Both the position numbers and the translations under genes were made by a program. DNA of 29,941 nucleotides from a virus. The first letter of the stretch is position 1; every line of letters begins with the position of its first letter. Positions 1 through 28,895 of this stretch are shown here, one piece after another. Where the stretch lies: positions 1 through 29,941 of the IMG/VR virus record IMGVR_UViG_3300037110_000098; one strand, given 5' to 3'. Below the pieces are notes generated by a model. That model had not been told where the DNA came from, did not search any database, and saw only the letters and a list, made by a program, of their open reading frames with translations.

Positions 1-63
1 GGCTACCAGACCAACTTCATTAAGAACTTCACTTACAATGTCCGTGCCGTTCGGGCTTTTTAA
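1..63 (+). CDS. C-terminal end of a DUF1566-like variable protein (partial)
   Basis: Only the last 20 codons and the stop are in the window; the gene begins upstream. The final nine codons (NVRAVRAF plus stop) are identical at DNA level to the end of the next gene at 82-567. The preceding 12 codons align without gaps to 505-540 but differ at 13 bases, and in 12 of these 13 one copy has an adenine. That pattern is what adenine-directed mutagenesis by a diversity-generating retroelement would leave. The C-terminal VRAVR(A/S)F ending is typical of the Lcl/DUF1566 C-type-lectin-like family. I infer a receptor-binding or display protein and a tandem sister of the next gene. Confidence 0.75.
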   Translation, partial: GYQTNFIKNFTYNVRAVRAF

Positions 64-96
64 CAATTTAAAATAAAAAAAATGGATAAAGAAAAG
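37..96 (+). repeat. 60-bp direct repeat, copy 1 (IMH-like end, intergenic leader and start codons)
   Basis: This stretch is identical base for base to 541-600. It covers the last codons of a variable protein, the stop, an 18-base A/T-rich leader, and the first five codons (MDKEK) of the next gene. Such a unit suggests tandem duplication of a whole variable-protein cassette. Confidence 0.95.
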
Positions 97-567
97 ATTG
101 GACAAAGTTATCAGGGAGGCATCATAGCTTATATTTTAAAATCCGGGGATCCGGGTTATGTTGCAGGACAAACACACGGCCTAATTGCTGCCACAAGTGA
201 TCAGAGCACAGGAATACAATGGTATAATGGAAGTTATATTTCAACTGGAGCAACAGGAACTGCAATTGGAACAGGAATGGCAAACACAAACATCATTATA
301 GCAGCACAAGGTATAAGTAGTTATGCAGCAAGTATATGTAAAGCATACAATGGTGGTGGGTATAGTGATTGGCATTTACCCAGTAAAGATGAATTGAATA
401 AACTATTTCTAAAAAAGAATAAAATTGGTGGTTTTTCTAATAACTACTATTGGAGTTCTACCGAGCTCAATAACTACGCCGCGTGGTTCCAGTTCTTCCT
501 CAATGGCTTCCAGCTCGACTACGATAAGTACTACCCAAGCAATGTCCGTGCCGTTCGGGCTTTTTAA
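82..567 (+). CDS. DUF1566/Lcl-domain protein, likely DGR target (variable protein)
   Basis: 161 residues. The N-terminal part carries motifs of the Lcl/Fibrobacter-major-paralogous (DUF1566) family: YQGGIIAYIL, DPGYVAGQTHGLIAA, DWHLPSKDELNKL, YYWSSTE and the VRAVRAF ending. The family has a C-type-lectin-like fold and is a known DGR target class in Bacteroidota and their phages. The base composition changes abruptly near codon 120. From 439 to the stop, 21 of 42 sense codons end in C and 8 in G, against a body dominated by A/T-ending codons. Many are NNC codons (AAC, TAC, TTC, CTC, GAC, AGC), as expected if AAC codons of a template repeat were randomised at their adenines. The start ATG follows an A-rich leader without Shine-Dalgarno. 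It probably binds a ligand or receptor on the virion; no reverse transcriptase or template repeat lies in this window. Confidence 0.85.
   Translation: MDKEKIGQSYQGGIIAYILKSGDPGYVAGQTHGLIAATSDQSTGIQWYNGSYISTGATGTAIGTGMANTNIIIAAQGISSYAASICKAYNGGGYSDWHLPSKDELNKLFLKKNKIGGFSNNYYWSSTELNNYAAWFQFFLNGFQLDYDKYYPSNVRAVRAF
439..567 (+). other. Putative DGR variable region with IMH-like 3' end
   Basis: This GC-rich tract ends a gene that is otherwise AT-rich. The last 27 bases (541-567) are identical to 37-63 and would serve as the invariant homing end (IMH-like). The segment 505-540 differs from 1-36 almost only at positions where one copy has A. The left edge is my estimate, taken from the composition change at the WSSTE motif. 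Known DGR biology supports the assignment; the missing template repeat keeps it an inference. Confidence 0.65.
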
Positions 568-600
568 CAATTTAAAATAAAAAAAATGGATAAAGAAAAG
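541..600 (+). repeat. 60-bp direct repeat, copy 2
   Basis: Identical to 37-96. Here the MDKEK start block leads into an unrelated 47-residue ORF instead of another DUF1566 protein. The repeat therefore marks a recombination boundary or the remnant of a third cassette. Confidence 0.95.
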
Positions 601-729
601 CAAGTATTAGAACTGTTCAATAAATACTATATAAAAGAAGAAATGTTCACTGATAAAACAATAGATCAATATGAATTATCAGAAACTCCAATAGAAGATC
701 TTGAAGATGATTACAATTTAGGAGAATAA
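586..729 (+). CDS. Small acidic protein with duplicated MDKEK start
   Basis: 47 residues. The leader and first five codons come from the 60-bp repeat and are identical to those of the DUF1566 gene. The rest (QVLELFNKYY..., ending in an acidic LEDDYNLGE) resembles no family I recognise. It is not part of the lectin-like domain. It may be a genuine small gene whose upstream region was copied to the DUF1566 genes, or an ORF that gained its start by recombination. No transmembrane segment or DNA-binding motif is apparent. It lies 18 bases behind the DUF1566 stop, so it is probably cotranscribed. Confidence 0.55.
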   Translation: MDKEKQVLELFNKYYIKEEMFTDKTIDQYELSETPIEDLEDDYNLGE

Positions 730-753
730 TGATGAAAATATTTTGTATTTCAT

Positions 754-840
754 TTACAATTTAGTAAATTTGATGATTACAAAAATGTGTTGTAGTGAGT
801 AAGTTACATGTTTGGTTGTATGAATTAATTTAAATTGTAA
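754..840. repeat. 10-bp inverted repeat in the 730-888 intergenic gap
   Basis: TTACAATTTA at 754-763 is the exact reverse complement of 831-840. A second pair, GATTACAA at 775-782 and TTGTAATC at 835-842, overlaps it. The gap of about 160 bases holds no ORF of note. The pairs could form alternative stems in a leader RNA or be operator half-sites; in AT-rich DNA chance is also possible. Confidence 0.35.
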
Positions 841-888
841 TCACTTTTGATTATACGTTTCATTAGCAAATATTTAATTCAAAATATT

Positions 889-1053
889 ATGGCAATTGCA
901 ATAAAAAACATTCCAATTCTTGAAAAAGATGATGCAAGAATTTTTGTTGAGAAAGCTGAAATAGCATACGCTAATAAGCAGACTATTGATTTTAGCAATG
1001 AGGTAAAATCAGCCAATAGTATATTGACCAAATCTAATATGAGATTAACATGA
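889..1053 (+). CDS. Small unknown protein, antitoxin-like in appearance
   Basis: 54 residues from the ATG at 889. A TTG 42 bases upstream would add 14 residues (MIIRFISKYLIQNI), but the ATG behind an A/T-rich leader is the more usual start here. The sequence MAIAIKNIPILEKDDARIF followed by a mixed charged helix resembles short Bacteroidota proteins of the kind often annotated as antitoxins, but I cannot name a family. No toxin-like partner is evident; the following ORF at 1073 is also unknown. Treat the antitoxin idea as weak. Confidence 0.5.
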   Translation: MAIAIKNIPILEKDDARIFVEKAEIAYANKQTIDFSNEVKSANSILTKSNMRLT

Positions 1054-1072
1054 AGAAATTAAAAGGAGGAAA

Positions 1073-1381
1073 ATGAACATGACGAACATTGGAATAAGGA
1101 TACAACAAGCTAAGGATGAGATGTTGAAGAGGTACATTGAAGCCACTGATTTGAATATTAATTATAGCGATTATCATCTTTTAAAGGAAGAGGTGCAACA
1201 GTTGACAGGAATACATATTGAGGATGACGACATAGCAACATACATGTCTCTCCAGATACATCATATTAATGATGATTATCCATCTCATGTGTTCAAGTCG
1301 TATGATAATCTCACTGATGGTGAGAAAGTTAGAAGGACATTTAATTCTGATTATTTTCATGAAAATTTAAAGGATGATTAA
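1073..1381 (+). CDS. Hypothetical protein
   Basis: 102 residues. This is one of two genes in the window with a strong Shine-Dalgarno sequence (AAAAGGAGG about 5 bases before the ATG), which fixes the start; a second ATG lies two codons in. The product is hydrophilic, rich in Asp, His and Tyr, with a predicted helical N-terminal half (GIRIQQAKDEMLKRYIEA) and no membrane segment or known motif. It lies between other small genes and ends three bases before the next ATG, so it is probably part of the same transcript. Function unknown. Confidence 0.7.
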   Translation: MNMTNIGIRIQQAKDEMLKRYIEATDLNINYSDYHLLKEEVQQLTGIHIEDDDIATYMSLQIHHINDDYPSHVFKSYDNLTDGEKVRRTFNSDYFHENLKDD

Positions 1382-1384
1382 TAT

Positions 1385-1516
1385 ATGAGTAATGTGAATA
1401 TGCCTATGGGTGCAGAATTAGACTGGTATGCCTTTGGGATGGAAGGGCACAAGGAAGAACCGGAATGGGATGAGGAACCGTGGGATTTTGAGGAGCAATA
1501 TTTTAAAAAAAGATAA
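1385..1516 (+). CDS. Small acidic Trp-rich protein
   Basis: 43 residues beginning three bases after the preceding stop. The composition is unusual: four Trp and a run of Glu/Asp-Trp pairs (EEPEWDEEPWDFEEQYF), ending in KKR. Such short acidic proteins occur in phage late operons, but no family is recognisable. The close spacing argues for translational coupling with the gene at 1073-1381. Confidence 0.5.
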   Translation: MSNVNMPMGAELDWYAFGMEGHKEEPEWDEEPWDFEEQYFKKR

Positions 1517-1567
1517 AATAATTCCCATACCGGTGATAAAACAGGGAAACTTAATTTAAAATAAACT

Positions 1568-1954
1568 ATGGATAAAATGTTAGCACAAAAAGAGTTAGAC
1601 ACTATCAGGGATATGGTTAAGGAACTCGAAAAAATAATTAATGAGCCGGAAGTTTCAAAAGAAAAAGAAATGAGTGATTTTTTATTTAACTCTATAGATG
1701 GATGTGTTAGAAAAATGACTAAAGGAGAAAAAGAAGTTACGTATTATAAAGATAATGAATGGGTAATAAAGCAGGATTATGAAAACAAGGTATTATGGAT
1801 AAGATATTCCCTAATATGGTTTGTTTTTAACACTAAATTTGGTCTTAACTATACTCAAATCAGAGATTTTATAGCTGCTTGGGTGGAAGCCAATACCGAA
1901 TGGAGAGGATTAACACCAAATAACAGGTTATGTCAAGCAGGTTTGCGGGTGTAA
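1568..1954 (+). CDS. Hypothetical protein
   Basis: 128 residues. The N-terminal third is a charged helix (MLAQKELDTIRDMVKELEKI). The middle contains alternating aromatic and charged stretches (VTYYKDNEWVIKQDYENK, WIRYSLIWFVFNTKF). The C-terminal part ends with WVEANTEWRGLTPNN and a short tail. Part of the tail-coding DNA (1887-1913) is repeated just beyond the stop, so the true ancestral C-terminus may have been changed by a local duplication. No known domain is recognised. Confidence 0.65.
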   Translation: MDKMLAQKELDTIRDMVKELEKIINEPEVSKEKEMSDFLFNSIDGCVRKMTKGEKEVTYYKDNEWVIKQDYENKVLWIRYSLIWFVFNTKFGLNYTQIRDFIAAWVEANTEWRGLTPNNRLCQAGLRV

Positions 1955-1979
1955 GCCAATACCGAATGAAGAGAGTTAA
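1887..1979 (+). repeat. Pair of imperfect 27-bp direct repeats across a gene end
   Basis: The sequence AAGCCAATACCGAATG and the next 11 bases at 1887-1913 recur at 1953-1979 with three substitutions. The second copy starts just inside the stop codon of the gene at 1568-1954 and is noncoding. This is a local duplication that probably altered the gene's 3' end. Confidence 0.8.
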
Positions 1980-2002
1980 TAATTGATAATGGACTCCAAA
2001 AA

Positions 2003-2030
2003 TTGAGTTAAAATAAAAGTAGTATATTTG
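2003..2030 (+). promoter_or_regulatory. Possible Bacteroidota-type promoter
   Basis: TATATTTG at 2023-2030 fits the Bacteroidetes -7 consensus TAnnTTTG. A TTG at 2003-2005 could serve as the -33 element, but the spacing of 17 bases is shorter than usual (about 19-20). It lies in the 266-base gap before the gene at 2221, a sensible place to start late transcription. Sequence match only. Confidence 0.3.
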
Positions 2031-2129
2031 TCCCCAAATTAAATTAAAGTTCCAGGTTTGATAGAAAATCGTCATTTAATCTAAATTAAGTGACGATAGT
2101 TATTAGTAAAGTAAAGGGGGTATAAATCT

Positions 2130-2148
2130 ATTATTTTACGAAAATAAT
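2130..2148. repeat. Perfect AT-rich hairpin, 8-bp stem
   Basis: ATTATTTT, loop ACG, AAAATAAT. It lies in the gap 1955-2220, downstream of the promoter-like site at 2023 and 73 bases before the next ATG. It could be a leader hairpin or an operator. No G/C stem or T-tract makes a terminator unlikely. Confidence 0.4.
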
Positions 2149-2220
2149 CTAAAATATTACCTTATTTAATATAAATTTCACGTATATTTAATAAATAATA
2201 GTACCCTAACCAAGAATTGT

Positions 2221-3303
2221 ATGGTAGAAAGCAACGGTTTGCCACCTGGAGTTATAAATACAGAGCAATATCAGAAGTATCTCGAAATTAATGAAAAGAT
2301 CAAGAATCACGAGTATAGAAAGTATAAATGCTCTGATGGAAGAATTGTCGATTTAATCAATCCAAAAAGTAAAACAGTACCCCTTCTTGAAGGTCTTAAA
2401 AATCAAGAGATTCAAGAGATATTTAGTAAAGCAAAAGTATTAAGATCTTTAATGGGTCAACGCACTGTTGCTTATCGAAAAATGGGTAGTTTAGATGGTA
2501 AGTTTGCTACGCCAGAATCTGTACTTGAAGGCAAGACTGATGAAATTATAGAATTTTTTGCAAGATGGTACACAGAAGCTGAAGTGCATAAGATTCTATG
2601 CACACAATGGGGTTATAAGATACCTATAATGGCAGTTAAACGCTTCGCTCTCAAGTATAAAGAGAAGATTGCTATATTAAAACAAGCGTATGAAGAAGAG
2701 TTTACAGATGTAAATATAGGGATAAAGCGTAGTCGCCTGTCAAGATTAAATTTCTTGATGAATGATAGAATGCAATTATATGAACGTAATCATAAGGTAG
2801 AAGATAGCAGAGAAATAAGAGCAATTCTTGATCAGGCACGTAAAGAAGTAGAGGGAGAAACTTTAAAGTTAGATTTAAGTGGTAAAATTGATATAGAAGC
2901 CACATTAACAATTGAATATCAAGGACAGGCTATGAATAGATTGCTGTTACAGCAATTAATCTTAGCTCGAGTTTCTTCAAGATTACAAGTCAATCCAATA
3001 GCCTTAATGTACAGATTAGCAAATAGTTATTATAGTAAATTTAATGGTTTTAGAAAGAATGAAGATATAACACAACAACCAATTTATCCAAGTAGTATCC
3101 CTTACGATTTCAATCAGATAGAGCAACAATATGAGGCCTTTTCATTAAAAGAACAACAGATGTCAAAGATAGAAGATGCTACTGTTATAGACAAAGAAGA
3201 GACCCAGGATATCAGGACTAAATTATTAAAAGCTCTCGATGCTAAACGTGCTAAGAATAAAGAAGTTAAAGAGAATACTGAAAAAATAATTTTGAGAAAA
3301 TAG
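2221..3303 (+). CDS. Possible phage terminase small subunit-like DNA-binding protein
   Basis: 360 residues, soluble. A segment at about 118-155 (WYTEAEVHKILCTQWGY and the following VKRFALKY) looks like a helix-turn-helix. It is followed by a long charged helical part with SRLSRLNFLMNDRMQLYE, REIRAILDQARKEVEGE and a short beta-like stretch. Small terminase proteins of tailed phages often combine an N-terminal helix-turn-helix with a helical oligomerisation core and lie upstream of the portal, as here with one gene between. No ATPase or nuclease motif of a large terminase is present, and none is seen elsewhere in the window. The role is therefore inferred from layout and general fold, and a different DNA-binding role is possible. 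The last 40 residues are Lys/Glu-rich. Confidence 0.45.
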   Translation: MVESNGLPPGVINTEQYQKYLEINEKIKNHEYRKYKCSDGRIVDLINPKSKTVPLLEGLKNQEIQEIFSKAKVLRSLMGQRTVAYRKMGSLDGKFATPESVLEGKTDEIIEFFARWYTEAEVHKILCTQWGYKIPIMAVKRFALKYKEKIAILKQAYEEEFTDVNIGIKRSRLSRLNFLMNDRMQLYERNHKVEDSREIRAILDQARKEVEGETLKLDLSGKIDIEATLTIEYQGQAMNRLLLQQLILARVSSRLQVNPIALMYRLANSYYSKFNGFRKNEDITQQPIYPSSIPYDFNQIEQQYEAFSLKEQQMSKIEDATVIDKEETQDIRTKLLKALDAKRAKNKEVKENTEKIILRK

Positions 3304-3383
3304 AATATATTAAAAGAAAAATTCACTATATTTAACCCATATTTGTAAAGTCAAAAATTGATAAAACAATAATTTTTAAAAAT

Positions 3384-4682
3384 ATGAAATCAATAATTGG
3401 TGGTGCTATTAACATGGATTCCTTTCTTAATAAGGATGATATAACGAAGGATCAGTTCGACAAGCTGGTCAAATCGGGTAAGTTTGATATTTATACACCT
3501 GAAGCAATTAATGCATTCAATAAAGAAATCAATAATGTTTTAAGTAAGGGAGAGACTGATTCTATCTCCTCTGAGACATTATCTGAAATTGAAATGCAGA
3601 AGGATTTGATTAAAGGACTTGCGGTAGTGACAGTTATTGGTGATGATCTGAAAAAAGCATATTTCTTTATAGGTGAAAGTCAGGTTGATATTGAGAAAGG
3701 TATTTATAAAAATACTTATTTTAATCGTAAACATTTCCTTGTTGGCAAGGAATGGCATCGTAAGAAGAAGGGTGTACAAGATACTGAAAAAGATACTGTT
3801 AAGACGAAATCAGGAAATACCGTTAATGAACCTACACACGAAGCTCCGAAAGAATCAGAGAAGAAAAAAGCAAAAGGTGGTTCTCATTTCGAATTGACCT
3901 CTGAATCCATCATGCATGATGGTGTTAAACTTTTCAGAGTTCAGTACAAAGATGGAACCGTGGGTGGTTTCGTTGAAAAAAAGGAAAATTTAGCTGACAA
4001 TGCTAAGGTTCTTGGTAATGCTAAAGTCTATGATAATGCTGTGGTCTCTGGTAATGCTGAGGTCTATAATAATGCTTGGATCTCTGGAAATGCTCGAGTC
4101 TCTGGTAAGGCTAAGGTCCATGGTAATGCTCGAGTCTTTGGTAAAGCTAAGGTCTCTGGTAATGCTGAGGTCTATAGTAATGCTTGGATCTCTGGAAATG
4201 CTCGAGTCTCTGATAAGGCTTTGGTCTTTGGTACTGCCTTTGTCTCTGGTGATGCTGAGGTCTCTGGTGATGCCCGGGTCTCTGGTGATACTGTGGTTCG
4301 TGGTAATGCCGAGGTCCATGGTAATGCTCGAGTCTCTGGTAAGGCTAAGGTCCATGGTAATGCTCGAGTCTCTGACAATGCTGAGGTCTGTGGTGATGCT
4401 GAGGTCTCTGGTATTGCCTGGGTCTATGGTAATGCTGAGGTCTATGATAATGCTGTGGTCTGTGATGATGCTGAGGTCTGTGTTAATGCTAAAGTCTGTG
4501 GTAATGCTAAAGTCTCTGGCGAGGCTTTGGTCTTTGGTAATGCTGTGGTCTCTGGTGATGCTAAAGTCTTTGGTAAGGCTGGGGTCTATGATAATGCTGT
4601 GGTCTGTGGTAAGGCTAAGGTCTCTGGTGATACTGTGGTCTGTGGTAATGATCGGATTACAAGTAATGATTTTAAAAAATAA
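3384..4682 (+). CDS. Long hexapeptide-repeat (left-handed beta-helix) protein
   Basis: 432 residues in three parts. Residues 1-130 are a unique head-operon-like region ending in a basic patch (NRKHFLVGKEWHRKKKG). Then comes a Lys/Glu-rich linker, and a conserved collar (GGSHFELTSES, GVKLFRVQYKDGT, GGFVEKKENL) at about 168-202. From about 204 to 427 there are roughly 37 hexapeptides of the form N-A-x-V-x-G, the rung pattern of left-handed beta-helices such as YdcK-like proteins. The GGFVEKKENL collar before such rungs is frequent in phage and bacterial proteins of unknown function. The DNA is an 18-bp tandem repeat, and the collar is closely similar to that of 19451-20089. The start could also be the ATG at 3414. 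It sits just before the portal gene, so a virion role is plausible; catalytic activity is not evident. Confidence 0.75.
   Translation: MKSIIGGAINMDSFLNKDDITKDQFDKLVKSGKFDIYTPEAINAFNKEINNVLSKGETDSISSETLSEIEMQKDLIKGLAVVTVIGDDLKKAYFFIGESQVDIEKGIYKNTYFNRKHFLVGKEWHRKKKGVQDTEKDTVKTKSGNTVNEPTHEAPKESEKKKAKGGSHFELTSESIMHDGVKLFRVQYKDGTVGGFVEKKENLADNAKVLGNAKVYDNAVVSGNAEVYNNAWISGNARVSGKAKVHGNARVFGKAKVSGNAEVYSNAWISGNARVSDKALVFGTAFVSGDAEVSGDARVSGDTVVRGNAEVHGNARVSGKAKVHGNARVSDNAEVCGDAEVSGIAWVYGNAEVYDNAVVCDDAEVCVNAKVCGNAKVSGEALVFGNAVVSGDAKVFGKAGVYDNAVVCGKAKVSGDTVVCGNDRITSNDFKK
3990..4665 (+). repeat. 18-bp coding tandem repeats (hexapeptide rungs)
   Basis: About 37 degenerate copies of an 18-base unit resembling AATGCTGAGGTCTCTGGT. 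A higher-order 108-base copy is visible: the block starting near 4044 recurs near 4152 with about two substitutions over some 70 bases. 108 bases equal six rungs, or two turns of a beta-helix. The repeats keep other frames open as well, which explains spurious overlapping ORFs. Confidence 0.85.
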
Positions 4683-6793: not shown

Positions 6794-7216
6794 ATGATAA
6801 AGTTTAAATGTGAACGCAAATGGTTACGAGCAACCTACACAATAAGTGATTATTCGTACTTTGATGACCAGAATCCTCAGGCTGGATGGCAGTGGCTGTG
6901 TAATATTCTGGAGTTGCAAGTAGGTAATAATACTCCAGATGAAGAAGCAATTTCTTATGGACTGTACACATTTACCCTTTCAATGAGTGAAAATCCGAAT
7001 ATTCCATATGTGTGTCCTTTACTGCAAGATGTTCCTGGACGAACAGGAATACGTCAGCATATAGGTGATTTCCCAAGAGACACTAAAGGATGTCAGCTTA
7101 TAGGAATGAATACTATAAAGGGAAGACTCACGGACAGTGAGACAACGTTCAATGATAAATATATACCATTATTGAAAGCGAGTGGTCAGACGTCATGGCA
7201 GTTATTAATATGTTAA
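6794..7216 (+). CDS. DUF5675-like phage protein
   Basis: 140 residues. The central and C-terminal segments match the DUF5675 pattern: YGLYTFTLSMSENP (G-x-Y-x-V-like), then PLLQDVPGRTGIRQHIGD and DTKGCQLIGMN (the conserved VPG-x-x-GIR-x-H-x-G-N and T-x-GC-x-x-G motifs). The family occurs in Bacteroidota and their phages, often near lysis genes, and its biochemical role is not established. The conserved His in RQHIGD and the Cys in GCQLIG would be the natural candidates for catalysis. The last 22 bases overlap the next gene. There is no signal peptide. Confidence 0.75.
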   Translation: MIKFKCERKWLRATYTISDYSYFDDQNPQAGWQWLCNILELQVGNNTPDEEAISYGLYTFTLSMSENPNIPYVCPLLQDVPGRTGIRQHIGDFPRDTKGCQLIGMNTIKGRLTDSETTFNDKYIPLLKASGQTSWQLLIC

Positions 7217-7419
7217 GACTTGATAGTTTAAATATTCACCTTGCTGTAGATAGGGTCAAGTCGCTTCTTGATAATAGCGATACTCCTATTGAGGTACATA
7301 CTTTAGGAATAGATGAATTTGCTTTACGGTTTAAATTGAAAACGGGTAAGGAATTGCATATTGAGCCTATGATTAATACAGAGGGAGGATTTTCAGTTAG
7401 TTTGAAATTAAAATTTTAA
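7195..7419 (+). CDS. Small hypothetical protein overlapping DUF5675
   Basis: 74 residues if read from 7195; an internal ATG at 7210 (MLRLDSLNIHL) would shorten the overlap with the previous gene from 22 to 7 bases and is equally plausible. The sequence has alternating hydrophobic and charged residues (IEVHTLGIDEFALRFKLK, FSVSLKLKF) that suggest a small beta-rich fold. No family is recognised. The overlap implies coupled translation with the DUF5675 gene. Confidence 0.6.
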   Translation: MAVINMLRLDSLNIHLAVDRVKSLLDNSDTPIEVHTLGIDEFALRFKLKTGKELHIEPMINTEGGFSVSLKLKF

Positions 7420-7437
7420 TAAAAAGGAGGATACAAA

Positions 7438-7863
7438 ATGATTACATTAAAACAGATCGAAGAAGATTTCGTACGTGCAACCACAAAGGTCGAGAATGGA
7501 ATTGTCAAGCTGGCAAAATCAGTTGAAACTGATGCTGTTGCTGCTGAAAAGGAAGTTGTAGCAGTAGTTCAGTGGGTAGCTGCCAATAACGGTGTTATTG
7601 ATGCTGCTGCCAACGTGATAATCAAGTATATTCATAACATACAAGCCAATACTCCTGCAAAGGAAGCTTTGGTACGTATCGCTGTATCGGTTGTTGGAGG
7701 TATTGAAGCCGCTGTTGATTTTATTGTTAAAGATCAGAATGTTATAATCGAAGAGGCAAAAGTAATATTGGATTATATTGTTAGTACAGCTGAAAAGGCA
7801 AAAACAGTCGTTGGAAGTGTAAGTTATCCCGCAGGGCTGGGTGCTAATAATGTGGGAAAGTAA
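7438..7863 (+). CDS. Alanine/valine-rich helical protein
   Basis: 141 residues, with the best Shine-Dalgarno sequence of the window (AAAAAGGAGG before ATACAAA and the ATG), which suggests strong expression. The sequence is a chain of amphipathic helices rich in Ala, Val, Ile and Glu with a more glycine-rich end (SYPAGLGANNVGK). There is no clear transmembrane helix, since hydrophobic stretches are interrupted by charges. It could be a coiled-coil virion or membrane-associated protein; phasin-like or phage internal proteins look similar, but I recognise no family. It is the last gene before the AT-rich cargo block. Confidence 0.65.
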   Translation: MITLKQIEEDFVRATTKVENGIVKLAKSVETDAVAAEKEVVAVVQWVAANNGVIDAAANVIIKYIHNIQANTPAKEALVRIAVSVVGGIEAAVDFIVKDQNVIIEEAKVILDYIVSTAEKAKTVVGSVSYPAGLGANNVGK

Positions 7864-9073: not shown

Positions 9074-9904
9074 ATGGAAGTATCTTCAATTTCTAATTAT
9101 GGGTGTAAATTTGAGAATTTGTTATTAAAATATAATAAATTAATCATTGATTATAATGAGTTACATAATAAATACAATCATTTGTTGTATAATAATAAAG
9201 TGATAGTTAAAAAGATGTTTTTAACTTCTATTAGTCCCGATGAGGCAAGTATAGATAGACAATTGAAAGCTATTAAATCGTGGGATAATTTGGCTATAAT
9301 ATATTCAGTGAATATTAAACAAGAAATTCAAAAGTTGAAAACTATTTTCACGATGGTTAATTTCATTGAGACTGTCAATACAGGTGAAGAATATTTTAAA
9401 AAGCCTTATGTTTATATTAATGAATTATTAATACAAGCAAGGAATATTGTAAAGGATGGATTGATATGTTTAATTAATTCAGATATTTTAATTGATGAAA
9501 ATATTAATAAATTAGATGATTTTTATAATCTATGTAATGGTGATAATTTAGTAATGGCGAATAGATATGATTTTAATAATCAAATATTAGATGGATCTAT
9601 TCAAGAATGGGGAATAGATGTATTTTTATTTCATTCAAAATTTGTATCTTTTTTTAATCAGAAAATATATTGTTTGGGTCAGCCATGGTGGGATTTATGG
9701 TTACCTTCTACAATTTGTAGTAAAGGTATTGATCTAATTCATTATAAGAAGCCTTTATTTTATCATAAAAATCATGAAAATCGTTGGAATAGTGAAAATT
9801 ATGAATATTTACATAAAGAATTTGATAAAGAATTTTATACAGAAAAATTGAATACTTCTGAAAAATTTTTTTTAACAATTAAAAAAGCAAAAGTAATACA
9901 ATAA
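9074..9904 (+). CDS. GT-A-like glycosyltransferase
   Basis: 276 residues. After a short helical N-terminus (residues 1-45) the protein resembles GT-A-fold glycosyltransferases: a first beta strand MFLTSISPDEASIDRQLKAI, a variant of the metal/nucleotide motif in CLINSDILID (NSD at 135-137), then EWGIDVFLFHSKF and the acceptor-side PWWDLWLP. The reaction would be transfer of a sugar from a nucleotide sugar to an unknown acceptor. The DNA is very poor in G and C compared with the portal or capsid genes. It is followed after one base by the FkbM methyltransferase, which supports a joint role in glycan synthesis. Confidence 0.7.
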   Translation: MEVSSISNYGCKFENLLLKYNKLIIDYNELHNKYNHLLYNNKVIVKKMFLTSISPDEASIDRQLKAIKSWDNLAIIYSVNIKQEIQKLKTIFTMVNFIETVNTGEEYFKKPYVYINELLIQARNIVKDGLICLINSDILIDENINKLDDFYNLCNGDNLVMANRYDFNNQILDGSIQEWGIDVFLFHSKFVSFFNQKIYCLGQPWWDLWLPSTICSKGIDLIHYKKPLFYHKNHENRWNSENYEYLHKEFDKEFYTEKLNTSEKFFLTIKKAKVIQ

Positions 9905-9905
9905 T

Positions 9906-10529
9906 ATGGAGTTAGATTTAAAGAAATTAATTAAAAAATATAATTTGAATTTATATGGAGTCATTAATATTGGTTCACATTATTTTCAGGAACGTCAGTT
10001 GTTTGAAGAGATAGGTATTAAGAATTATTTATTAATAGAACCACAAAAACATGCTTTTGAAGAAACTGTTAAAAAATCTACAGCATTAAATAATTGTAAG
10101 ATTTTGAATTGTGCTCTTTCGGATAAAGAAGGAGAAATGACTTTATACTGTGATAAGATAGAAGTAAATGCAGGTGCCAGTTCAAGTTTATTAAAGCCTA
10201 AAGATCATTTAAAAAAATTTCCCTGGGTAGAATTTAATAGAGAAGAAAGAGTGAATGTATTGAAATTAGATAATATAGTTTTAAATAAAGAAGATTATAA
10301 TTTTATCTTTATTGATGTACAGGGGAATGAGTTGAATGTATTTAAGGGTGGAGAAAATACTCTTGTATATATTGATGTTATTTTGACTGAAGTTAATTTT
10401 ATAGAATTATATGAAAATTGTTGTTTGGTTGAACAATTAGATGAATTTTTAAAATCATATTATTTTGTACGTGTAGAGACTGGTAAAGATTTGGGTGGAT
10501 ATAGTGATGCTTTATATATAAAGAAATGA
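9906..10529 (+). CDS. FkbM-family methyltransferase
   Basis: 207 residues. The SAM-binding motif is VINIGSHYFQER (a degenerate G-A-N-x-G loop, about 19-30), the acidic end of strand 2 is LLIEPQ (about 41-46), and the FkbM signature IFIDVQGNELNVFKGG is near 133-148. The family O-methylates sugars and related groups and is common in glycan loci. The next gene overlaps by four bases (ATGA), so the two are cotranslated. With the glycosyltransferase upstream, it may methylate a transferred sugar, for example to cap a glycan. AT-rich codon use matches its neighbours and differs from the structural genes. Confidence 0.85.
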   Translation: MELDLKKLIKKYNLNLYGVINIGSHYFQERQLFEEIGIKNYLLIEPQKHAFEETVKKSTALNNCKILNCALSDKEGEMTLYCDKIEVNAGASSSLLKPKDHLKKFPWVEFNREERVNVLKLDNIVLNKEDYNFIFIDVQGNELNVFKGGENTLVYIDVILTEVNFIELYENCCLVEQLDEFLKSYYFVRVETGKDLGGYSDALYIKK

Positions 10530-11170
10530 GAAATATTGATACGGTAAATTATTTTATTACTAATCAATGCAATCGTAGTTGTGTAGATTGTGCTCACAAT
10601 AATCCTGAAAGGATGAAAGATAAATCATTAAATAAATTTATTAATTTTGATTATATTTACGAATCTGCTAAGTATTTTAAAGGAATGAGAATTAAACTTA
10701 CTGGTGGAGAACCTACATTTCATCCATTATTTAATGAAATAGCTTCTAAATTTAGAGAAATATTTAATCCTTCGTCATTAGATATGGATACTAATGGATA
10801 TAAGTGTTTGGATAATATTGAATCATTAAAATATTTTGATAAAGTTTTATTCAGTCATTATATTCAGGGAGAATATTTTAATCATAATGAAGATAATACT
10901 CATATTTTAAAAGAATTAAAAAAGAGGACAGATATAAGTTTAATTGTATTTGATATAAATACTTTTGAAAGTAGAATTAATAATAACCATAATCCTTGTT
11001 ATAGAGGTACAGAATTGGGAACTGTGTCTTATATAGACGGATTAATATATCCTTGTTGTATAGGGGTAGGAAATAAAAGAGCTGTTGGTATGAAACCTAT
11101 TTTAGATTGGAAGAGTAAAATATTGGAAGTCCCTTTGGATTGTACTAATTATTTATTTGCTATTGAATAA
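10526..11170 (+). CDS. Radical SAM enzyme
   Basis: 214 residues. The CX3CX2C cluster motif is C15-C19-C22 (CNRSCVDC) and the SAM-binding GGEP follows at 60-63 in IKLTGGEPTFHP. Near the C-terminus, C158, C177 and C178 (NPCYRG, YPCCIG) recall a reduced SPASM-like auxiliary cluster region. The protein is shorter than many radical SAM enzymes (usually about 300 or more residues), so the barrel may be partial. The substrate is unknown. SPASM-type enzymes often modify peptides or sugars; here the neighbours favour glycan or nucleotide-sugar chemistry. The ATG overlaps the FkbM stop (ATGA). It ends the AT-rich cargo block. Confidence 0.85.
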   Translation: MRNIDTVNYFITNQCNRSCVDCAHNNPERMKDKSLNKFINFDYIYESAKYFKGMRIKLTGGEPTFHPLFNEIASKFREIFNPSSLDMDTNGYKCLDNIESLKYFDKVLFSHYIQGEYFNHNEDNTHILKELKKRTDISLIVFDINTFESRINNNHNPCYRGTELGTVSYIDGLIYPCCIGVGNKRAVGMKPILDWKSKILEVPLDCTNYLFAIE

Positions 11171-11185
11171 CTTTAATTAAAAATT

Positions 11186-11314
11186 ATGGACTCATTTGAA
11201 CAAATTAAAACCGAACAGCAACGCAGGGCTGCGAATATAGCTGCGAATGTAATACCTGATAAATCAGTTGAAACCAAGCAACCCGATGGTACTAAATCAG
11301 AATCAGATAAATGA
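11186..11314 (+). CDS. Small hydrophilic protein before the MuF gene
   Basis: 42 residues, hydrophilic, with Gln/Arg/Ala-rich helix (FEQIKTEQQRRAANIAAN) and a polar tail. It begins 16 bases behind the radical SAM gene and overlaps the likely start of the MuF gene by 29 bases. It may be a small assembly factor or a translational-coupling leader for the head protein. No family is known to me. Confidence 0.45.
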   Translation: MDSFEQIKTEQQRRAANIAANVIPDKSVETKQPDGTKSESDK

Positions 11315-12218
11315 GTTGCTCCGTATCGTTGAAGTGACCCATACTGTCTTTATTGCTCAGAACATAGGAATAGATACTTTATCGGAAGAAGACATACTGT
11401 TACTTCGTCGTTTTAATATAGACCCGTCTGATTATGCCGTCGAGCATACACCATATAAGATAGCTTATCTATTCGGGAAGCTGAGTCAGATACTTGGTGA
11501 TAAGAATACAAAATCATTGAAGTATGATGATTTGGTTAAATATGTGCGAAATCGTCAGTATGAGCCATTGACTGATACTGAAAAGGAAATTTATAAGATA
11601 GCACAACGACGGACATATAGTCATCTCAAGAATCTTGAGGAACGTGTAAAGCAGACCGTTGCAGGTGAGGTGTTAGAATACAGCCATAAGAATCGAGAAC
11701 AGTTTGAGAAGGTTACTAAAGAAGCGATAAAATCTGCAGTCCGTAAGAGAGAGAGTATAGGGTATGTGATTAGTCAATTAGGGAATAAGACTGAGGATTG
11801 GCGTCGTGACCTTGGACGTATCGCTGCAACTGAAATGCAGAATATATTTGAGCTCGGAAGAGCCGAGCAAATAGCAAAGAATAGTAAGAAAGGTTGGGAC
11901 ACTGAGGTTTATAAAGATGTATTCCCCGGAGCTTGTCGTCACTGCATACGTTTGTACATGACGACAGGAATAGGAAGTAAACCTCGCATTTTTAAGCTGA
12001 AAGATTTAGTGGCTAATGGTACTAATATCGGGCGAAAAGTAGAAAATTGGGTCCCTACCGTGACGGCTCTTCATCCTTGGTGCAGGTGCTTACTTACAGA
12101 AGTTCCTCGGTTCAGGGAATGGAATGATAAAGAAAAAAAATGGACTATGGTGGAACGAGACTACAGTAAGAAGTTTGGAATAAAAATTACTGTTGGTGAT
12201 AAAGTTTTTAATATTTAA
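11286..12218 (+). CDS. Phage head morphogenesis protein (MuF/SPP1 gp7-like)
   Basis: 310 residues from the ATG at 11286; a TTG six codons upstream is possible but less likely. The C-terminal half carries the MuF domain signature: RIAATEMQNIFELGRAEQI, the cysteine motif FPGACRHCIRLY, and the terminal TALHPWCRCLL. In SPP1 and Mu this minor head protein binds the portal or is packaged in the capsid and acts in head assembly or DNA entry. The N-terminal part is a helical arm (NELLRIVEVTHTVFIAQ). Here it is separated from the portal by the cargo block, an unusual distance, which suggests the cargo was inserted between them. The base composition returns to that of the structural genes. Confidence 0.85.
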   Translation: MVLNQNQINELLRIVEVTHTVFIAQNIGIDTLSEEDILLLRRFNIDPSDYAVEHTPYKIAYLFGKLSQILGDKNTKSLKYDDLVKYVRNRQYEPLTDTEKEIYKIAQRRTYSHLKNLEERVKQTVAGEVLEYSHKNREQFEKVTKEAIKSAVRKRESIGYVISQLGNKTEDWRRDLGRIAATEMQNIFELGRAEQIAKNSKKGWDTEVYKDVFPGACRHCIRLYMTTGIGSKPRIFKLKDLVANGTNIGRKVENWVPTVTALHPWCRCLLTEVPRFREWNDKEKKWTMVERDYSKKFGIKITVGDKVFNI

Positions 12219-12304
12219 TTTTGTTTGTTCTCTTATTTGTAGTAAATTTATAACTTGAAAAATTGTAAAATCATCATCGGCTCTATAATAATAATAATAA
12301 GTAT

Positions 12305-12646
12305 ATGGTTCTCCCTAATCAACAGGCTGGTGATGCCGTTAAATCATTAGATGGTGCTGGTAGATTGGTATCATTTCAAATATCACAATTTACAACTCAG
12401 AACTCAGGAACACAACCCAGTCAACCTATTGGTGCAGCAGGTATGAATGATCCTGAAGGATTTTATTTGAATGCTCATAGTGGAGATCAGGATAATATCA
12501 TTATGGTCACTGCTGCAGGAGATCCTGATGGTACTGTAAGTGCTCTTAGACTTTCAACTGGATGGAATCCAGTAAGAGTAAAGATGGTTTTACCTCTTTC
12601 TACATCTGGTAATACAATAACGAAATCACTTTATTGGGGGAAATAA
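12305..12646 (+). CDS. Small structural protein, fibre module candidate
   Basis: 113 residues, rich in Gly, Ser, Thr and Asn, with no charged helices. It reads as a beta-sandwich (FYLNAHSGDQDNIIMVTAAG, NPVRVKMVLPLSTSGN). No family is recognised. Similar compact beta proteins serve as head-fibre or decoration modules. The 86-base gap before it contains a run of ATA triplets and no clear promoter. A 14-codon mini-ORF (12646-12690) sharing a base with its stop and overlapping the next ATG links the genes translationally. Confidence 0.6.
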   Translation: MVLPNQQAGDAVKSLDGAGRLVSFQISQFTTQNSGTQPSQPIGAAGMNDPEGFYLNAHSGDQDNIIMVTAAGDPDGTVSALRLSTGWNPVRVKMVLPLSTSGNTITKSLYWGK

Positions 12647-14856: not shown

Positions 14857-15762
14857 ATGAGCCATATTATAGCAAACGGAACAAATCTTTTAGCACTTGG
14901 AAACAATTTTCTAAGTACAGTTGATAAATTTATTTTTTCAACTTATGTATGTGGTGGTTCAGGTTCATTTAGTAATCCTTTTGGAGCAGCTATTAACCCA
15001 ACAGGAACATTATTATATGTTCCAAATAGCGACAATAGTACAGTATCAGTTATCAATATTCCTGCAAACACTCTTAATTCAGTTATTACTACAGCAGCTG
15101 GCTCATTTAGTACTCCACGTGGAGCAGCTATTAACCCAACAGGAACATTATTATATGTTCCAAATCACAGTAACAACACAGTATCAGTTATCAATATTCC
15201 TGCAAACACTCTTAATTCAGTTACTACAGCAACTGGCTCACTTAGCGGTCCTAATGGAGCAGCTATTAACCCAGCAGGAACATTATTATATGTTGCAAAT
15301 TACAGTAACAGCACAGTATCAGTTATCAATATTCCTGCAAACACTCTTAATTCAGTTATTACTACAGCAGCTGGCTCATTTAGCCAACCTTATAGTGCAG
15401 CTATTAACCCAGCAGGAACATTATTATATGTTCCAAATTACAGTAACAGCACAGTATCAGTTATCAATATTCCTGCAAACACTCTTAATTCAGTTATTAC
15501 TACAGCAGCTGGCTCATTTAGCGGTCCTATTGGAGCAGCTATTAACCCAACAGGAACATTATTATATGTTACGAATTCCGGTAACAACACAGTATCAGTT
15601 ATCAATATTCCTGCAAACACTCTTAATTCAGTTATTACCACAGCAACTGGCTCATTTAGTACTCCTTTTGGAGCAGCTATTAACCCAGCAGGAACATTAT
15701 TATATGTTGTAAATAGCGGTAACAACACAGTATCAGTGTTAAATAATCTAACAGCATCATGA
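14857..15762 (+). CDS. Phage YVTN-type beta-propeller protein
   Basis: 301 residues. After about 35 residues of unique sequence, six near-identical blades of 46 residues (one is 45) follow. Each has the form GSFSxPxGAAINPxG, then TLLYVxNxxNxTVSVINIP and ANTLNSVITT. This is the YVTN/surface-layer beta-propeller repeat, known from archaeal S-layers and bacterial surface proteins. Six blades suffice for a closed ring. Nearly all amino-acid differences between blades fall in two short windows (xPx and Nxx), while flanking codons are identical even at silent sites. The stop overlaps the next ATG. Its position among fibre genes suggests a receptor-binding or fibre tip role. Confidence 0.8.
   Translation: MSHIIANGTNLLALGNNFLSTVDKFIFSTYVCGGSGSFSNPFGAAINPTGTLLYVPNSDNSTVSVINIPANTLNSVITTAAGSFSTPRGAAINPTGTLLYVPNHSNNTVSVINIPANTLNSVTTATGSLSGPNGAAINPAGTLLYVANYSNSTVSVINIPANTLNSVITTAAGSFSQPYSAAINPAGTLLYVPNYSNSTVSVINIPANTLNSVITTAAGSFSGPIGAAINPTGTLLYVTNSGNNTVSVINIPANTLNSVITTATGSFSTPFGAAINPAGTLLYVVNSGNNTVSVLNNLTAS
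14962..15740 (+). repeat. Six tandem 138-bp coding repeats (propeller blades)
   Basis: Unit starts at 14962, 15100, 15235, 15373, 15511 and 15649. Blade two lacks one codon, so the spacing there is 135. Copies share long identical stretches such as GGAACATTATTATATGTT. Such near-identity indicates recent expansion or ongoing recombination between blades. Confidence 0.9.
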
Positions 15763-19450: not shown

Positions 19451-20089
19451 ATGCCAACTATTGAACATTTGTTACAGGCGAAGACCTTAAATCGAATTCA
19501 GGACATAGCTGTGAATTCAGGGTCTGATAAAGAATTCGTAAAAGAATTCAAGGAAGAATCAAAAGGTGGTTCTCATTTCAAATTGACCACCGAATCCATC
19601 GAGCACAAGGGTGTTAAGCTTTTCAGGGTTCAGTACAAAGATGGCACCAAGGGTGGTTTCGTTGAAAAAAAGGAAAATTTAGCTGGTAAGGCTAAGGTTC
19701 TTGGTAATGCTAAAGTCTTTGGTAATGCTGTGGTCTCTGATGATGCCCGGGTCGCTGATACTGCTCAGGTCTGTGGTGATGCTGAGGTCTCTGGTATTGC
19801 CTGGGTCTATGGTAATGCTGAGGTCTCTGGTGATGCCCGGGTCTCTGATACTGCTCAGGTCTTTGGTAATGCTGTGGTCTATGATAATGCTGTGGTCTCT
19901 GGTATTGCCTGGGTCTATGGTAATGCTGAGGTCTCTGGTGATGCCCGGGTCTCTGATACTGCTCAGGTCTTTGGTAATGCTGTGGTCTCTGATGATGCTC
20001 AGGTCTCTGGTGATACTGTGGTCTCTGGTAGTGCTTTGGTTCGTGGTGATGCTGTGGTCTCTGGTGATGATAAGTTATTTAATGATTAA
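19451..20089 (+). CDS. Second hexapeptide-repeat (beta-helix) protein
   Basis: 212 residues. A short N-terminus (about 36 residues) precedes the same collar as in 3384-4682 (GGSHFKLTTESIEHKGVKLF, GTKGGFVEKKENLAG) and then about 22 hexapeptide rungs (A-x-V-x-G-N type). The DNA of the collar is closely similar to the first copy, 16 kb away, which indicates recent duplication or gene conversion. A 94-base block at 19787-19880 recurs exactly at 19895-19988, offset 108 bases. The N-termini of the two proteins differ, so the beta-helix may be a shared display or trimerisation module on different anchors. No active-site residues for an acyltransferase are evident. Confidence 0.75.
   Translation: MPTIEHLLQAKTLNRIQDIAVNSGSDKEFVKEFKEESKGGSHFKLTTESIEHKGVKLFRVQYKDGTKGGFVEKKENLAGKAKVLGNAKVFGNAVVSDDARVADTAQVCGDAEVSGIAWVYGNAEVSGDARVSDTAQVFGNAVVYDNAVVSGIAWVYGNAEVSGDARVSDTAQVFGNAVVSDDAQVSGDTVVSGSALVRGDAVVSGDDKLFND
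19787..19988 (+). repeat. Exact 94-bp repeat with 108-bp period inside the beta-helix gene
   Basis: Bases 19787-19880 and 19895-19988 are identical. The 108-base offset equals six hexapeptide rungs, or two turns of a left-handed beta-helix, so whole turns were duplicated. Confidence 0.95.
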
Positions 20090-27571: not shown

Positions 27572-27683
27572 ATCCGATATTATATATTAAAAAAATAGTT
27601 CAAGAATACTGAAACATTTTAGCAAAAAATGAGTATAAAGATTAAATATATAATTACAGAAAATAAAAAGATTGTGTAAATTA

Positions 27684-28895
27684 ATGTTAAAAGCTTATAA
27701 ATATAGAATTTTTCCAAATGATGTTCAAAAAGAATTATTAGCTAATATCTTTGGACAGGTACGAATTGTCTATAATTATGGTTTAGAACAAAAGATAGCA
27801 GCCTATACTAAAGATAAAACTAATCTAAGATGTTTTGATTTAATAAAACAGATTAAAGTTTTAAAAGATACTACACTTCCTTGGTTAGAAATTGCACCAT
27901 CTCAAGCTTTACAGATGGCGATGAGAAATCTGGATAATGCCTATACGAATTTCTTTCGGGGCAAAGGCTTTCCTAAATTTAAAAGTAAACATAAAAGGCA
28001 ATCTTTCCAATTACCACAAGGAGTATTTTTAAGTGAAGATCATAAACAGATATTTCTTCCTAAATTAAAGTTTGTGGATATAGATTTACACCGGGAATAT
28101 AAAGGAGAAATAAAGACAGTTACGGTGTCTAAAACAGTTACAAACAAATATTTTGTTTCGATTTTAGTCGAAACAACTCAAGATAAACCTGAAAAGAAAC
28201 CTATAACCGAAGATACAGCGGTAGGAATTGATTTAGGTATTAAAGATTTTTGCATTACATCAGATGGTAAGAAATTCGAGAACCAAGATTTTTTGAAATC
28301 GAGTATGCGACAATTACGGGTAGAACAACGATCATTGGCTCGAAAAAAGAAAGGCAGTCGACATTACTATCAACAAAAGATGAAACTTTCTTTACTACAC
28401 GAACACATCACCAATCAGAGAAAAGATTACTTACATAAGATTTCTCATTACTTGGTGACTAATTATGACACCATTTGTATGGAGGATTTGAATGTTTCGG
28501 GAATGATGAGTAGATGTAATCCTAAGAAAGATGAAAATGGAAAATATCTTCCTAATGGGCAAGCGGCCAAATCAGGCTTAAATCGAGCTATATCTGATAT
28601 GGGATGGAGCGAATTTAGGATAATGATAGAATATAAAACCGAGTGGTATGGTAAGAATGTATCTATAATTGGTAGATTTGAACCTTCCTCTAAAGTTTGT
28701 TCGAACTGTGGTTGGATTAACAAAGACTTGACATTAGATATCCGTGAATGGACTTGCCCTAAATGTAATATCATTCACGATCGTGATACTAATGCCGGTA
28801 AAAACATTAAAAATTTTGGGTTGAGGAACCAACCCAGCGTTACTCAAAGTGATAGATTACTATGTGCTTGTAACGTAGAAGCCACTATACTTTAG
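27684..28895 (+). CDS. tnpB: RNA-guided nuclease TnpB (IS605 OrfB-like)
   Basis: 403 residues from the ATG at 27684; a TTG four codons upstream is less likely because the MLKAYKYRIFPND start is typical. The RuvC-like triad is intact: VGIDLGIKDF (D183), ICMEDLNVSGM (E267) and HDRDTNAGKNI (D368). Zinc-finger cysteines 339, 342, 358 and 361 (CSNCG, CPKC) lie between the second and third motifs. TnpB is an RNA-guided DNA endonuclease that uses an omega RNA from the element's right end to cut empty target sites and so keep the element in place. The stop codon TAG lies in the loop-side of the first omega-RNA hairpin. The gene is full length with no sign of decay. The product likely acts on this phage's or a related phage's DNA. 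Confidence 0.9.
   Translation: MLKAYKYRIFPNDVQKELLANIFGQVRIVYNYGLEQKIAAYTKDKTNLRCFDLIKQIKVLKDTTLPWLEIAPSQALQMAMRNLDNAYTNFFRGKGFPKFKSKHKRQSFQLPQGVFLSEDHKQIFLPKLKFVDIDLHREYKGEIKTVTVSKTVTNKYFVSILVETTQDKPEKKPITEDTAVGIDLGIKDFCITSDGKKFENQDFLKSSMRQLRVEQRSLARKKKGSRHYYQQKMKLSLLHEHITNQRKDYLHKISHYLVTNYDTICMEDLNVSGMMSRCNPKKDENGKYLPNGQAAKSGLNRAISDMGWSEFRIMIEYKTEWYGKNVSIIGRFEPSSKVCSNCGWINKDLTLDIREWTCPKCNIIHDRDTNAGKNIKNFGLRNQPSVTQSDRLLCACNVEATIL

Follow-up and report, generated by a model that had tools for sequence, protein, structure and literature searches.

Tandem lectin genes at the start of a phage contig probably carry variable repeats of a diversity-generating retroelement

The stretch of DNA analysed, here called the window, is a virus record from IMG/VR, 29,941 nt long and devoid of tRNAs, and it opens with the following features.

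1..63 (+): 3' end of a first variable-protein gene that is truncated at the contig start, with variable repeat 1 (VR1) at 1-36 and the homing end plus stop at 37-63
82..567 (+): complete variable-protein gene of 161 aa, encoding just one Lcl_C/DUF1566 C-type-lectin-like domain
463..540 (+): core of variable repeat 2 (VR2), NNC/NNT-type codons with the invariant spacers GCG TGG, CAG, GGC, CAG and AAG
541..567 (+): homing-end (IMH-like) sequence AATGTCCGTGCCGTTCGGGCTTTTTAA, identical to 37-63
568..600 (+): sequence between the stop and the next gene together with that gene's leader, the same as in 64-96 and starting with CAATTTA
586..729 (+): small downstream ORF of 47 aa, with the same leader and the same five initial codons (MDKEK) as the variable-protein gene

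Diversity-generating retroelements (DGRs) rewrite a receptor-binding surface by copying a template with its adenines randomised. A sequence-only reading of this locus had proposed such an element on the basis of two adjacent genes with gap-free alignable 3' ends. The alignment is confirmed (1-63 versus 505-567, with 13 differences, all within the first 36 bases), while of the two genes the first is represented in the window by its last 21 codons, stop included, and is known by this tail alone. Identity of the last 27 bases (37-63 and 541-567), as had been described, is real but extends further, to 61 bases (36-96 and 540-600) running through the stop and the leader up to the fifth codon of the following gene, by which the repeated unit is defined as one of 504 bp. 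The 47-aa ORF, for which no Pfam match was found, is the end of such a unit, and the array probably grew by duplication of the ~504-bp unit. If a lectin gene had simply been duplicated in tandem and the copies had then acquired point mutations under diversifying selection, with no retroelement involved, just such a duplicated unit with identity past the stop would be left, and ordinary tails are indeed the rule among viral relatives: out of 80 viral Lcl_C loci 33 have a readable tail, and 31 of these 33 are not DGR-like, with C at about 0.33 or less of the third codon positions (C3) and mostly terminating in VRAIRSF or similar.

The 161-aa protein matches Pfam PF07603 (Lcl_C; E=2.3e-12, 47.7 bits versus a curated cut-off of 34.9) as well as phrog_4245, and an N-terminal attachment domain is absent. 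Its AlphaFold2 model, built with 52 locus-derived sequences as input, reaches a pLDDT of 96.2 and a pTM of 0.91; the nearest solved fold is the C-terminal domain of Legionella Lcl (8q4e; TM 0.82 by target length), and matches in BFVD are DUF1566 proteins of uncultured phages, either standalone or inside longer proteins. On the model, the variable tract is predicted to occupy the strands and loops with which the domain ends, at residues about 128-153, and the lectins presumably contact the host surface or another ligand. DGR variable domains systematically adopt the C-type-lectin fold (PMC8144416), and DUF1566 has been reported as the most common target domain of DGRs (PMC6642488).

Twelve of the 13 differences between VR1 and VR2 have A in one copy, as originally counted, and the thirteenth is C/T, compatible with a template A that mutated in both copies. 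The binomial chance of 12 or more out of 13 is 0.0017; with relatives as the null, the same bias is reached by 0 of 1079 pairs of DUF1566 tails poor in C-ending codons and by 1 of 941 pairs of tails rich in them. The tract had also been called GC-rich with half of its codons ending in C, which stands for the codons (C3 of 16/26, or 0.62, in 463-540 versus 15/127, or 0.12, in the gene body; Fisher 2.7e-7), while GC content itself amounts to 51% in the variable tract and 37% in the gene body. In 19 other ORFs of the window, none of 6255 stretches 26 codons long has a C3 above 0.385. Ordinary duplication thus has to contend with an A-bias that none of the ordinary-tail pairs attains and with C-ending codons concentrated in one tract of an AT-rich gene.

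Scanning bacterial genomes uncovered 79 loci 51-70% identical to the window protein, mostly in Bacteroidota, one of which, L036 in a Bacteroidetes MAG (CAIVEH010000163), is a complete cassette. It consists of an Lcl_C target (9578-10471; 61% identical to the window protein over its domain), bAvd (10532-10876; PF22296), a template repeat (TR) and a reverse transcriptase (RT; 11287-12543), and all mismatches between its own TR and variable repeat in the best 50-nt stretch are at A (12/12). Both window repeats align to the L036 TR without gaps and in codon register; VR1 has 10 mismatches in 36 nt, 9 of them at template A, and VR2 has 31, of which 22 are at template A. In the genome of another relative, L018, an RT and a TR are present as well (L105), and 14 of 15 mismatches are at A for one of the three L018 tails. 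The L036 genome also harbours a second DGR (L107, contig C106 of G020) with an RT 89% identical and with its own template and target. Two further candidates were set aside: at L044 the DGR serves a different target and the Lcl_C gene is not DGR-like, and the Methylomonas plasmid CP157006 carries two RTs elsewhere, with identical scores, and no template near the Lcl_C gene within a 16-kb locus.

Tandem arrays of related genes are found in phages too. On an 88-kb contig (G005), five tandem Lcl_C genes of 107-108 aa each (L095; 9220-10922) form an array with a 344-bp unit in which leader and homing end are repeated, and three copies (2996-4030) are present in L197, a locus of the same metagenome which is about 90% identical around the array; L198 has one copy. 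The number of target copies therefore differs between sister phages of one metagenome, five versus three. Across the nine repeats of these three loci, A occurs in 39 of the 42 variable core columns and only four core columns are invariant A, with a mask of the NNC/NNT type. Neither an RT nor a TR was found within the 88 kb of G005, and no kinship of G005 with the window phage is detectable.

In the TRs of L036 and L105, which are templates of relatives and not the window phage's own, 21 of the 36 columns are A, and all 13 window differences fall on these (p=8.8e-5); likewise all 13 fall within the variable columns of the phage arrays L095, L197 and L198 (20 of 36 columns; p=3.4e-5), with the proviso that change-tolerant columns of the fold could coincide between families without a DGR, which weakens both p-values. 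The codon mask of 463-540 is that of the L036 and L105 TRs and of the nine variable repeats of the phage arrays. Point mutation after ordinary duplication would have had to hit template-A columns 13 times out of 13 and spare the adjoining 27 bases altogether, and we regard this explanation as highly improbable.

Sequence signatures at and beyond the stop codon point in the same direction as the mask. A homing-end form, GTNCGNGCNGTTCGGGCTTTTTAA, recurs at the ends of DGR-like tails from several phyla, and C-rich Lcl_C tails have GTTCGGGCTTTTTAA in common. Directly after the stop, NNATTTA is found in 25 of 45 DGR-like versus 2 of 47 other tails (p=3e-8), and farther on a GC-rich stem-loop, for example CCGC-GAA-GCGG, is present in 13 of 45 versus 1 of 47 (p=3e-4); codon and downstream-sequence signatures together separate DGR-like from ordinary DUF1566 tails. 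The window locus possesses the homing end and the post-stop motif in the form CAATTTA, and no stem-loop was detected within 100 nt downstream of either stop. In phage BPP-1 the stem-loop directly after the IMH helps without being essential (PMC12875486), and since it is not strictly required, its absence is not taken as excluding membership among DGRs. In DGR-like Lcl_C loci from several phyla (L036, L026, L017, L057, L081, L085 and others), a conserved YNATTTAAC..ATTTAAC follows the stop and is itself followed by the CCGC-GAA-GCGG hairpin; sequence and hairpin may be part of the homing site.

VR1 comprises only 36 variable bases at the contig end, which leaves some room for a misassembly of strain variants. 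The first 96 bases would then be a variant of a single gene joined through the 61-bp stretch, and both sequences would be DGR products but not in tandem. The contig does begin inside the first copy, the 61-bp repeat is short, and DGR variation would be expected to break assemblies. However, copy 1 leads into a complete gene and copy 2 into a different ORF, which requires a preceding gene with the same end in any case, and tandem arrays occur independently with five copies in L095, three in its sister phage L197 and two adjacent genes among the three targets of Pseudomonas phage Cruim01. An artefact of this kind, which we consider improbable, could mimic two genes in tandem, but would not produce the signature of a DGR.

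Resting on the anatomy of the locus, the A-bias, the match of the codon mask to real template repeats and the fold, all observed here, our reading is that window 1-567 holds two DGR variable repeats in tandem, belonging to phage Lcl_C/DUF1566 genes of which there are at least two copies; we assign it a probability of about 90%. Each gene would encode a lone C-type-lectin-like domain, the last ~100 bases being a DGR variable repeat closed by the common homing sequence. From a single A-rich template repeat an RT would make cDNA with errors at the template adenines, and this cDNA would take the place of the variable repeat in either gene, upstream of the common homing end. As the codons are mostly NNC, some 12 or more of the fold's terminal residues could vary with no stop codons made. 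Two targets with one homing end might, as also proposed by the sequence-only reading, double the receptor repertoire. The diversification proposed by the sequence-only reading is in this respect backed by the template-A columns, the tail signatures and the other arrays, and a single template outside the window as the source of both copies is what we infer.

The template itself was sought widely. As had been stated, the window contains no RT (no PF00078 match), nor was a match found in the fragments L001 and L002 of the same phage, which do not cover window 1-567. No template was detected when window 1-3000 was scanned against itself (at most one non-A mismatch), and Rfam matches in the window are absent. 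For the homing end of both repeats, the exact 24-mer has no match in IMG/VR, and with one mismatch none was found in 395 Bacteroidota genomes. An 18-mer of it hit two GC-rich IMG/VR contigs (L003 and L004, halovirus) in an unrelated capsid-type gene, and these were dismissed as chance matches. The mask pattern found no match in IMG/VR, a looser mask matched, in 398 more genomes, only the genome of L036 itself and one unrelated variable repeat, a DNA search of phage records with window 1-620 returned nothing, and no relatives came from a single-protein scan of IMG/VR. The search for template and RT that the sequence-only reading had called for thus yielded neither in the window, in IMG/VR or in the sampled Bacteroidota genomes. 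As the record is a 30-kb fragment, this absence of template, Avd and RT is uninformative, and near-identical records may be lacking from the collections searched. All three probably reside in the missing part of the phage genome; that they act in trans from the host or another element is a minor possibility, and that they have been lost is quite unlikely.

Phages that keep targets without the machinery do exist. Pseudomonas phage Cruim01 (PP179333) encodes avd, TR and RT together with three targets that depart from the TR only at A (10/10, 12/12 and 13/13 mismatches). Aurca01 (PP179334; L012/L199; 57,369 nt, deposited as complete), with the same host strain as Cruim01, has three targets which match the Cruim01 TR at 69/69, 69/69 and 68/69 non-A sites, and it is missing the avd-TR-RT stretch save the last 29 RT codons. 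A gene annotated as RecB-like occupies this place. Medea1 (MW862109; L201), circular and deposited as complete, has two targets matching the Cruim01 TR at nearly all non-A sites, and an RT was not found in it. Between Cruim01 and Aurca01, third positions differ at 80 of 490 sites in the target bodies versus 0 of 95 non-A sites in the repeats (p=3.2e-7), a contrast suggesting that the same template served to rewrite the repeats once the target bodies had diverged; the Aurca01 pattern is compatible with rewriting in trans or with a very recent loss. The term reverse transcriptase does not occur in the paper describing Cruim01 and Aurca01. The expectation of the earlier reading that a genuine target comes with a template or RT in the genome was consequently too strong, at least two phages deposited as complete keeping targets without an RT.

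The window phage might likewise be a target-only phage, its repeats being real and diversified in trans by the DGR of a host or co-resident phage, or a recent relic. Besides Aurca01 and Medea1, the five tandem targets of G005 without RT or TR in 88 kb are in line with this, as is trans diversification reported in Thiohalocapsa PB-PSB1 (PMC10907252); yet the window is a fragment, in which nothing shows that an RT is missing from the whole genome, and we hold this explanation possible but unlikely for the window. More generally, and as a tentative and rather doubtful proposal, some phages, possibly that of the window, may carry expandable tandem target arrays free of RT and template, which a host DGR or that of a co-resident phage rewrites in trans. 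No report of RT-less target arrays in phages was found in the literature searched, the coverage of which is incomplete. If such arrays are indeed diversified in trans, a hypermutation machine can be borrowed by phages, and the usual practice of detecting DGRs through the RT overlooks such cases.

Elsewhere in the window, long repeats with an 18-bp period at 3384-4682 and 19451-20089 encode YdcK-type beta-solenoids, with PF18836 in the former gene and an 82% identical 300-bp stretch common to both. The gene at 14857-15762 is composed of repeats of about 138 bp (SVINIPANTLNSV units); contig L001 ends inside it, at 86% protein identity. An IS605/TnpB-like gene lies at 27672-28895. A TnpB-like gene 43% identical to it is inserted in L002 (1700-3545) at the site corresponding to window 7216-7438, which is empty in the window and in L001.

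Multi-target DGRs have been described, one with five DUF1566 targets (PMC6642488), and so have phage DGRs with two targets, data on multi-target phages being called limited (PMC10743442). The window locus therefore adds to a known kind, namely a Bacteroidota-type phage with adjacent standalone lectin targets to the few described multi-target DGR phages, while the comparison yielded phages deposited as complete with near-perfect DGR targets and no RT. With the BPP-1 DGR (Mtd), the locus shares a C-terminal C-type-lectin repeat that is diversified at adenines and closed by an IMH; BPP-1, in contrast, has a complete cis cassette, one target, which is a tail-tip protein, and a stem-loop after the IMH (PMC12875486). 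The L036 cassette is similar in its Lcl_C target, in a TR codon-aligned with the window repeats and in the homing-end form, but unites target, bAvd, TR and RT, has one target with a long N-terminal part and, unlike the window, a stem-loop after the homing end. The arrays of L095/G005 and L197 resemble the window in lone tandem lectin genes, repeated leader and homing end, the variable-codon mask and the absence of RT and TR from the available sequence, and differ in protein length (107-108 aa), unit (344 bp) and an unrelated phage backbone. Cruim01, Aurca01 and Medea1, finally, have small standalone Lcl_C variable proteins, two of them adjacent, with one homing end, as in the window, but are GC-rich Pseudomonas phages with longer proteins (about 200 aa), TR, Avd and RT being present in Cruim01 and an RT absent from Aurca01 and Medea1.
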